Source: Deltaproteobacteria bacterium
GTDB lineage: Bacteria; Desulfobacterota; DSM-4660; Desulfatiglandales; HGW-15
Assembly: GCA_019310525.1 (NCBI GenBank)
Contig: JAFDEE010000011.1
Location: forward strand, 1 to 52,337
Direction: 5' to 3'
Length of the DNA: 52,337 nt
Position numbers and translations under genes: made by a program. The first letter of the stretch is position 1; the number at the start of each line of letters is the position of its first letter. Shown one piece after another: positions 43,475-52,337 of this stretch. The notes beneath the pieces were generated by a model. The model saw only the letters and a list, made by a program, of their open reading frames with translations, was not told the DNA's origin and did no database searches.

Positions 43475-43566
43475 TCCTGCTCAAGAGGTCCAGTTACAAT
43501 TGAAATTTGGGGACCAAGGATTAACGCTTTCGATCTTTTTCTCCTTGGAAGGAAGGTTCGAGCAAG

Positions 43567-43779
43567 GGCCGATGGCTCCTTTTCTGAAGTGACTGGCGGG
43601 AGGGCGCCGTGGTTTTCGCGGCTTATCAGTGGGGGAAGCCGCAGCTCACGCTCTCTTAGAGCGGGAGAATGCGGAGGGGGCCGGCCCGCCAGGAAGCGGC
43701 GGGCAGGTGTCCCCCGCTGATAAGCCGCTGAAAACACCAGCCCGGGAGCCTCCGAACGAAAGAAAAGGTGACATCGGCC
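43567..43779 (+). other. Long fold-back element P1 (possible structured RNA)
   Basis: A 213-bp imperfect palindrome. Outer arm GGCCGATG/CATCGGCC, then CCTTTTCT against AGAAAAGG, and inner arm 43618-43635 against 43711-43728 (17 of 18 Watson-Crick plus one G-T pair). The centre holds two hairpins: CTCACGCTC-TCTTA-GAGCGGGAG (43645-43667) and GCCCGCC/GGCGGGC (43684-43704). Unpaired motifs GAAGTGAC (43586) and GGGAGG (43598) recur in P2. I see no coding frame worth calling. Confidence 0.7.
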
Positions 43780-43823
43780 TTTTGGAGGTTGGTATCGAAT
43801 TGAAGTACTCACCGGATTATAAT

Positions 43824-44022
43824 GAAGGGGCATGGGGATCTTTTCCTCGTTCCCGAGTCTCACGGCCTGGTTATTTCAAGGGGTTAGGGACGGGGGAGTT
43901 TTGCCCCCTCCGCCGTTCTCCCGCTTTTACAAGCGGGAGCCGGGGTTTCCCCCATCCCTAACCCCTTGAAATAACGAAGGCCTCCCAACAGGTCACTTCC
44001 GAAAAGATCCCCATGCCCCTTC
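43824..44022 (-). other. Long fold-back element P2, inverted homologue of P1
   Basis: A 199-bp palindrome with perfect 22-bp outer arms (43824-43845 and 44001-44022) and perfect 20-bp inner arms (43871-43890 and 43955-43974). The centre has hairpin CTCCCGCT-TTTACA-AGCGGGAG (43918-43939) and a second GGGGG/CCCCC hairpin. On the minus strand it shares with P1 the motifs GAAGTGAC, GGGAGG, TGGGGGAA, AGCGGGAGAA and GCGGAGGGGG in the same order, while the arm sequences differ. It ends 90 bp before the acyl-CoA dehydrogenase. Confidence 0.75.
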
Positions 44023-44112: not shown

Positions 44113-45255
44113 ATGCCTATTACGCCCGATCATATGTTTTTCAGGGATCAACTTTCCCGGTTTGTGAAGGATCGCATCCGGCCCCTTGCGGCGGAGATCG
44201 ATCGATCAGATACCTTTCCAAAGGAGCTCTTTCGTGAAATGGGGCGCCTGGGGTATTACGGGATCCGGTACCCGAAAAAAAGCGGCGGCCTTGAAGCTGA
44301 TACCCTGACCTGTTCCATCTTTGTTGAGGAAATCGCCCGCGGTTCCCTTGCCTTCGGCGTGATCTGCCTCATGCAAATCCTGATGGGTACTGATTTTCTC
44401 TTCAGGTTCGGGAGCCGGGAAATCAAGGAGCGGCTCTTTTACCCGGCCCTCAAGGGTGAAAAAATAGGGGTCATCGCCTTCACCGAACCCGATTGCGGCT
44501 CCGATCTCGCCTCCATTCGCACACTTGCACGCAAGGAAGGAAACGACTTCGTTCTCAAGGGTTCGAAGACCTGGATCACCAACGCCCCCATTGCGGACTT
44601 TTTTACCGTGGCCGCATCCACCGACCGGAGTCTGGGACTTAAAGGAATCAATTTCTTCCTTGTGGAAAAGGACACCCCCGGCTTTGAGGTGGGAAAGAAT
44701 ATCGAGAAAACCGGCGCCCTGGGCTCCTGTACCGGGGAAATATTCTTCGACGACTGCCGGATCCCAGGCGACCACCTTCTGGGAGCCGAACTCAACAAGG
44801 GATCGGTTTATCTACTGGAGATCCTGGGGGATATTCGAATCATGGTGGCATCCCTCGCCCTGGGTCTGGCCGGTGCAGCCCTTGACGAATCCATCTCCTA
44901 TGCCAAGGAGCGCCAGGCCTTTGGAAATCCCATCGCCAAGTATCAACTCATCCAGGAAAAGATCGCCCGAATGGCCACGGAGATCGAGGCCTCTCGGTGG
45001 TTGATCTACCAGGCCTGCACCCTTAAGGACCAGAAGGCCCCCTTTGCCCGGGAAGCAATGATGGCAAAGGTCCATGCTACTGAAACCGCCATGATGGCCG
45101 TGGATGAGGCAAGGCGCCTTCACGGAGCCTATGGTTTCTCCAGGGAATACACGGTGGAAAGGTTGTACCGGGACGCAGGGTTCCTCCTCTTCGGTGGCGG
45201 CACTCACGAGATTTTGGCCCTGAATATCGCGAGGGACATCCTCAAAAACGCCTAG
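44113..45255 (+). CDS. Acyl-CoA dehydrogenase lacking the usual catalytic glutamate
   Basis: A FAD flavoenzyme of the acyl-CoA dehydrogenase family, 380 residues. Family motifs are present: AFTEPDCGSDLASI, KGSKTWITNAPIADF, RQAFGNPIAKYQLIQEKIA, and the C-terminal LHGAYGFSREYTVERLYRDAG. The segment usually YEGTSEI is FGGGTHEI, so the catalytic Glu position (362) is Gly, and the alternate Glu position of the isovaleryl-CoA type seems not filled. Some cyclic acyl-CoA dehydrogenases use an Asp near residue 91; Asp94 is a candidate. AGGAGG lies 6 nt before the ATG. No electron-transfer flavoprotein gene is adjacent. Confidence 0.88.
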   Translation: MPITPDHMFFRDQLSRFVKDRIRPLAAEIDRSDTFPKELFREMGRLGYYGIRYPKKSGGLEADTLTCSIFVEEIARGSLAFGVICLMQILMGTDFLFRFGSREIKERLFYPALKGEKIGVIAFTEPDCGSDLASIRTLARKEGNDFVLKGSKTWITNAPIADFFTVAASTDRSLGLKGINFFLVEKDTPGFEVGKNIEKTGALGSCTGEIFFDDCRIPGDHLLGAELNKGSVYLLEILGDIRIMVASLALGLAGAALDESISYAKERQAFGNPIAKYQLIQEKIARMATEIEASRWLIYQACTLKDQKAPFAREAMMAKVHATETAMMAVDEARRLHGAYGFSREYTVERLYRDAGFLLFGGGTHEILALNIARDILKNA

Positions 45256-45271: not shown

Positions 45272-46057
45272 CTACCCTTTTTTCTTCAATCTTTCCAGTA
45301 TCTCTTCTGCGACCTTCCGGCCCGAGAGAAGCATTCCCCCGAAGATGGGTCCCATCCTTGGTCCTCCGAACGTAGCGTTGGCGGCCATCCCTGCCACGTA
45401 AAGCCCGGGGAAGACCTCACGGGTATTTTCCAAAGTGAGGGACTCGGCGCGATCGGACCACATGGATTTCTCCCCTTCAATATTCCCCGTCGGGGTCTGA
45501 AGGTTACCCGGGACCTTCCTATGGGCGACTTTCACAACTTCTGTGGCGTGTCCGGTAGCGTCGATAACAAATTCCGCCCTCATGGTCAGGGGATCCACGT
45601 GAAGTCCCGCCATTTCCACAGGCGACCAGTTCAAAACAAGGCCCATGATCCGGTCCTCCCTCATCATGACATCCTCAATACTCACACAATTGAATATCTT
45701 GAGGCCCGCCCGGAGCGCCGCAGTGACCAGGGACGCCACAGCCTCGACGGAATCCGCGGTGTAATAATGATCCTCGTATTTTCGAACCCGAACTCCGATA
45801 CGTTCCAGGATGTCCAGGGCGGCGTCCTGGACAACGATCTCGTTGAACATCATCCCGCCGCCCCACATGCCACCCCCGACACTCAGCTTGCGTTCAAAAA
45901 GAACGGCCTTGCAGCCAGCCTCGGCCAAGGTATATCCTGCCACCAATCCGGCGGGTCCACCACCCACAATCGCCACCTCACTCTCCATGGCGGAACGGAG
46001 TTTCTCCACGTAACGATCGATGATTGCCCTGGTGATGACGACTTCATTCAATTCCAT
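45272..46057 (-). CDS. thi4: Thi4-type thiazole synthase (sulfide-dependent type likely)
   Basis: Makes the ADP-thiazole precursor of thiamine from NAD, glycine and a sulfur source, or ribose-1,5-bisphosphate derivatives in related enzymes. The fold is flavoprotein-like: [48 protein letters not shown] and a C-terminal [20 protein letters not shown]. At the position of the sulfur-giving Cys of yeast THI4 a non-Cys residue seems to stand (VAHRKV), as in archaeal enzymes that use free sulfide. A TPP riboswitch lies upstream, which confirms a thiamine role. The start at 46057 has GGAGAAG; a longer frame would run into the terminator. Confidence 0.87.
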
Positions 46058-46090
46058 AGCGCTCTTCTCCTTTTTTAAAAAAAATTCATA

Positions 46091-46124
46091 AAAAAAGACC
46101 GTTTCCCCTTCATGAGAAACGGTC
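46091..46124 (-). terminator. Terminator of the TPP riboswitch expression platform
   Basis: On the minus strand GACCGTTTC-loop-GAAACGGTC (46124-46097) is a perfect 9-bp stem followed by six T residues, ending about 35 nt before the thi4 start. It lies directly after the TPP aptamer, so thiamine pyrophosphate should favour this terminator and stop thi4 transcription. Confidence 0.85.
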
Positions 46125-46149
46125 CTGGTTGAATACACTTCCGGCCCAG

Positions 46150-46243
46150 GCTCGTTTCCCTACGCAGGCATGATCCTGATCAGGTTCAAAGGGTTGCCCG
46201 GAACACCGGGCTCTCAGATGCTGAGCAACACCCCTAACGAGCG
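46150..46243 (-). promoter_or_regulatory. TPP (thi-box) riboswitch
   Basis: On the minus strand, GCTCGTTAGGGGTGTTGC, then GCTGAGA-like CTGAGAG, an ACCC TTTGAACCTGATC segment, and GCGTAGGGAAACGAGC match the TPP aptamer consensus, including closing P1 pairing CTCGTT with AACGAG. It senses thiamine pyrophosphate and controls the thi4 gene downstream. Confidence 0.95.
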
Positions 46244-46433
46244 AAAACCATCCTAGGAGAACCGTGCGGGCATGTCAAGCATTTCCTATCAACTTGCTCT
46301 GATATACACCCATCCGGTTCTTCTTGACGGCGGTATATGAATGTTCTAGTCTTCTTTCAAAGGGGAAAAAGCGCACAGCATTTCTCTCTTCCTGGTAAAA
46401 TCACGTAGAAAAAATATTCAGAGGAGGATGGCC

Positions 46434-52224: not shown

Positions 52225-52337
52225 TGAGACCTTTGAAAAATGCTCAATTTTGGTCAAGTTCAAGGAAGGCGAAAATTTCAACCGCAGGAATACATTTAGT
52301 ATTTTGAGGATTGAAATTTGAGCCTGACGCCGCAATT
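52225..52337 (+). repeat. Repeat family B copy (terminal type 2), leaving the right edge
   Basis: Starts GAGACCTTTGAAAAATGCTC, the type 2 terminus also at 43138, then TCAATTTTGGTCAAGTTCAAGG, GAAAATTTCAACC, a shorter middle and GAGCCTGACGCCGC. The right end is outside the window. The sequence between 52020 and 52224 shows nothing I recognise. Confidence 0.75.

Follow-up and report, generated by a model that had tools for sequence, protein, structure and literature searches.

MITE-like dispersed repeats of Desulfobacterota-type bacteria with a portable, conserved core whose fold is probably kept as RNA

Two adjacent fold-back elements, P1 and P2, lie inverted to each other in the window, that is, the whole 52,337-nucleotide stretch of Deltaproteobacteria DNA analyzed here. 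We estimate a probability of roughly three in four that both belong to a MITE-like family of short mobile repeats, non-coding and dispersed through the genomes of Desulfobacterota-type bacteria, with a portable conserved core whose fold is kept as RNA. The units would presumably be moved in trans by a TA-targeting transposase, a type that we infer to be of the IS630/Tc1-mariner kind. Selection on the fold of one strand would maintain the core, which would most likely act as RNA produced by read-through transcription of its neighborhood.

Inverted-repeat searches and RNA folding against shuffled sequences confirmed the positions given to P1 and P2 in an earlier note, which had been made from the letters of the window (Table 1). 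End-to-end alignment of P1 (plus strand) with P2 (minus strand), both fold-backs of about 200 nt, also upheld the homology claimed there, with the named motifs in the same order, and 43660-43680 of P1 and 43905-43925 of P2 cross-matched as an inverted repeat. When folded as RNA, P1 reached -134.4 kcal/mol and P2 -139.7 kcal/mol, and none of 200 shuffled sequences folded equally well in either case. The outer arms of P1 paired imperfectly. For P2, the perfect 22-bp outer arms were recovered as described, whereas the inner arm, described as a perfect one of 20 bp, was 28 nt long and 96% paired. An acyl-CoA dehydrogenase gene (44113-45255) lies downstream of the pair.

Table 1. Positions in the window of P1, P2, their arms and the adjoining parts of the composite repeat. 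The R1 model was built from 21 sequences, P1 and P2 among them, and its E-values are rough.
Feature	Position	Strand	Observation
Composite linker, left half, upstream of P1	43480-43566	+	matches link79-167 of the unit as found on other contigs of this genome
P1 fold-back element, P1-type core	43567-43779	+	fold z -6.85; R1 model match 43566-43780, 174.6 bits, E 2.0e-38; dispersed copies
P1 inner arm, 5' side	43609-43636	+	28 nt, 86% complementary to 43710-43737
P1 inner arm, 3' side	43710-43737	+	pairs with 43609-43636 (28 nt, 86%)
44-nt spacer between P1 and P2	43780-43823		conserved in other composite copies
P2 fold-back element with P2-type core, in inverted orientation to P1	43824-44022	-	fold z -11.3; R1 model match 43827-44019, 174.6 bits; dispersed copies
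P2 outer arm	43824-43845	-	pairs with 44001-44022, 22/22
P2 inner arm	43870-43897	-	28 nt, 96% paired with 43948-43975
P2 inner arm, partner of 43870-43897	43948-43975	-	inverted-repeat search
P2 outer arm, partner of 43824-43845	44001-44022	-	inverted-repeat search
Composite linker, right half (link1-50), after P2	44023-44072	+	several genome copies break at link47-50

P1 and P2 proved to be dispersed repeats, a property beyond what could be seen from the window. The R1 model found 43 matches at E 1e-8 or better in the window's own genome (3.78 Mb in 158 contigs), one of which was the reverse strand of another copy. The core copies in this genome number about 42, with the provision that copy numbers throughout are lower bounds or approximate and that the genome records are MAGs, parts of which are masked. 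Most of these copies lie inside a composite repeat of about 620 bp, ordered as linker (167), P1 (213), spacer (44) and inverted P2 (199), which occurs whole, cut or repeated across dozens of contigs; mosaic and inverted partial copies were present as well. Two solitary core copies (contigs C12 and C22) have another kind of end. Many contigs of this genome end at or within the element, as would be expected of repeated, palindromic DNA assembled from short reads. The composite may have arisen in the window's lineage through head-to-head fusion of P1- and P2-type units and would then have spread as a repeat. Just upstream of P1, 43138-43474 holds another MITE-like element, whose 17-bp terminal inverted repeats (GAGACCTTTGAAAAACG) are perfect; a further end, with one mismatch, is found at 52226-52242, and elsewhere in the genome P1- or P2-type copies contain insertions of related pieces.

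The earlier note had proposed a search of related genomes with a covariance model, and relatives of the core were found in 34 of the 61 searched. The distribution across the phylum is sporadic: the core occurred in 13 of 395 genomes drawn across it, belonging to several families of the uncultured, sulfate-reducer type and including other orders. When one genome per species was scanned for the pattern, 65 stretches were returned, all of them in uncultured MAGs that, with few exceptions, carry the label Deltaproteobacteria, Desulfobacteraceae/Desulfobacterales, Proteobacteria or Pseudomonadota; a single one was on a short 'Bathyarchaeota' contig that is possibly misbinned. The element was not found in the phages, plasmids and viral contigs searched, and an origin from any of these was ruled out by the absence of matches in those collections. 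Three genomes (G032, G026 and G401) held weak model matches of about 177 nt and about 30-58 bits (e.g. G032:C1:951852-952029), which may represent a remoter subfamily or a different long hairpin.

In the relatives, a conserved folded core of about 160 nt sits inside units of 233-319 nt that have sharp, lineage-specific ends. The complete units are imperfect palindromes, short, non-coding and present in dozens of copies per genome, as MITEs are. In one genome (G052) the ends were sharp, reading TA-CTACTGAGAGCAT ... ATGCTCTGCTTAG-TA, and 35 matches to the left end were counted. One copy in this genome (L231) was flanked by TA on both sides and was absent from the congeneric genomes G040 and G028, which have a single TA at that place, indicating an insertion with TA target duplication and identifying the element as a MITE in that lineage. 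Against the main reading, target duplication is shown at this one insertion only. In another empty-site comparison (L184), only one flank was conserved. The L184 locus also holds, at 647-842, a different and very abundant palindromic repeat of about 195 nt, which occurs in many places in four genomes (G028, G034, G040 and G056) of genus g26; in G034, query position 657 is followed at once by 816, suggesting an empty site of that repeat.

The full units that were read comprised ten end types. Types A to E have terminal inverted repeats matching at 10-15 of the 15 terminal bases, and in types F and I they are offset through the choice of boundary. End type G has no terminal inverted repeat in the full units read, and thus one type of transposase cannot explain all ends. 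The type A terminal-repeat matches of G052, in which some stretches are masked, included neither an autonomous copy nor a transposase with matching ends. A 452-nt unit with type A ends and an unrelated interior was seen at L236:1501-1952, and its interior looks like a nested element with the ends GTATCGTTCAAA / TTTGAACGATAC.

We then turn to the fold. RNAalifold on 21 copies predicted 55 pairs, 27 of them with two-sided changes. When 98 distinct matches were aligned to the model, 94.6% of the cells were paired and two-sided changes appeared in 39 of the 55 pairs. The covariation test suggested in the earlier note was positive, with a score of 0.261 compared with 0.105 in shuffled alignments (0 of 500 as high) and 0.040-0.062 with slid partners, in an alignment that was fitted to the model and so favours structure. 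The G-T pair that had been read as fitting RNA better than DNA was no isolated case: on the strand read in the earlier note, isolated G-T mismatches outnumbered A-C mismatches 39 to 8 (24 to 8 by distinct column pairs) in a strand-symmetric fold-back without preference for wobble pairs. This strand bias is probable rather than proven, and the G-U excess was weaker among pairs that are predicted for both strands (26 versus 15, p 0.12). G-U states were frequent in the aligned core (e.g. U-G in 66 of 85). Together, the covariation, the conserved internal loops and the G-T excess suggest that the core folds as RNA.

The core is portable, since nearly identical cores were found within unrelated ends. 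Two copies in the same MAG (L209 and L185) had cores that were 96% identical, with a flank identity of 0.42 as against 0.47 for random 40-mers; for L209 and L192, core identity was 0.93 and flank identity 0.41. Across such comparisons, cores were 91-96% identical with flanks no more similar than random. The core tree follows the end type largely or in part, with exchanges, and because ends were exchanged round a fixed core, part of the outer-arm covariation is a change of ends. The inner helices keep two-sided changes of their own. The earlier claim that pairing was kept while sequence changed therefore stood for the conserved fold and its many two-sided changes, and needed correcting for part of the signal, in the outer arms, which reflects replacement of whole ends round a near-identical core in addition to any compensation base by base.

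With the fold of the core and the motifs of its internal loops persisting through several orders despite replaced arms, the core could instead be a self-standing functional non-coding RNA, carried as cargo in different mobile ends and with an activity of its own (regulatory, ribozyme or guide-like). It would then represent a new class of functional structured RNA, repeatedly transferred between unrelated miniature mobile elements and intact across several orders. The near-identity of cores in unrelated flanks, the strand bias of the wobble pairs and the frequent G-U states would all suit such an RNA. However, in the units examined the core is preceded by only tens of nucleotides of unit sequence, the distribution is sporadic, and the orientation and neighbors of the copies count against it as well. 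Of 67 distinct copies, 43 lay between two predicted genes, 15 overlapped a predicted ORF and 9 were at a locus edge, with no clear bias in orientation to neighboring genes; the absence of bias ruled out a cis-regulatory element of fixed orientation. It also counts against the RNA part of the main reading, for which a promoter could not be established either. No protein family recurred beside the copies in 65 loci beyond a generic cluster resembling signalling proteins. We regard an RNA class of this kind as possible but doubtful.

The fold might also act as DNA, as a hairpin or cruciform recognized in transposition or at replication forks, with RNA being irrelevant. The palindrome extends over the whole unit as far as its ends, some units have a REP-like hairpin at both ends, and the palindrome is evidently processed as DNA: at one site (L196), G040 has the full unit and G028 a core-deleted unit joined at a 4-nt repeat, indicating that some loss of the core happens in place. 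Core-less 121-nt forms were seen in several places, so the core may be dispensable for mobility, with at least one such form explained by the in-place deletion at L196; a suggestion that these forms move by themselves, argued from their shared junction, was dropped on the same ground. The conserved wobble pairs and unpaired loops exceed the needs of a DNA palindrome. Y1 transposases occurred in carriers and non-carriers alike and were absent from one carrier (G191), a distribution that ruled out Y1/REP mobilization as the general driver, and the surroundings of two Y1 transposase loci in G041 showed no matching REP motif. A purely DNA-level role is, in our judgement, unlikely.

A caution for the part of the main reading that concerns RNA and selection is that palindrome-templated repair can mimic covariation. 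Template switching between the long, near-perfect arms could keep complementarity as a mutational effect, free of selection, and the replacement of outer arms round a fixed core and the mosaic and inverted partial copies would accord with it. Such a process would, however, erase the conserved non-complementary internal loops and equalize G-T and A-C mismatches, neither of which was seen, and we consider it improbable as the source of the covariation.

The earlier note had been unable to place the elements in a known class, and for Rfam this held: a search of the window and six relatives gave no credible class for P1/P2, the matches to Metazoa_SRP and Dictyoglomi-1 scoring low and far below the gathering scores. 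The resemblance to HEARO/omega RNA raised there, which would make the core a guide RNA of an IscB- or TnpB-like element, lies in size range, a long closing stem and many copies, but it is very improbable given that the HEARO covariance model did not match the element even at E 10 with lax filters, that the six relatives gave no Rfam match either, and that no IscB/TnpB-type or other nuclease-type gene recurred near copies in the 65 loci when their neighbors were compared by clustering. The note had also allowed for remains of a known insertion sequence; the elements are indeed a mobile repeat, but no known insertion sequence or transposase partner was identified. The Rfam search also marked two features elsewhere in the window, both on the minus strand: a group II intron D1-D4-3 match (42-211, 135.8 bits) and a TPP riboswitch (46140-46245, 75 bits) directly upstream of a Thi4-family gene (45272-46138).

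Descriptions of bacterial MITEs usually define these repeats by their ends. The present family turns this picture round, with a conserved inside and exchanged ends. Should the core be a functional RNA, it would offer a case, open to direct testing, of a structured RNA travelling as the cargo of mobile elements; should it not be, the family would be a well-sampled case for weighing selection on structure against palindrome-templated mutation.

P1 and P2 are best read as members of a MITE-like repeat family akin in kind to ERIC and NEMIS, with a core that appears unusually complex, conserved and RNA-like. End type G resembles REP/BIME elements in carrying GTAG and a CCCACGGGC hairpin near both ends, but most end types here have terminal inverted repeats, the presence of Y1 transposases, which are found in genomes without the core, does not follow that of the element, and we know of no REP counterpart of the 160-nt core. 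ERIC (enterobacterial repetitive intergenic consensus, 127 bp) is predicted to form a single long stem-loop (PMC2267715) and alters the levels of transcripts that contain it (PMC10969869). It is likewise a dispersed palindromic MITE, a likeness of kind, but it belongs to another host group, and the core here is longer and branched, with conserved internal loops and many unrelated ends. NEMIS/Correia of Neisseria is also a small mobile repeat, and RNase III cuts its RNA within mRNAs (PMC10969869). The likeness is again one of kind, and RNase III cutting in mRNAs is a mechanism that may be considered for the core. Compared by description only, the Chunjie MITE of Geobacter uraniireducens (235 bp, multi-copy; PMC10969869) is a multi-copy MITE of similar size in a formerly deltaproteobacterial host.
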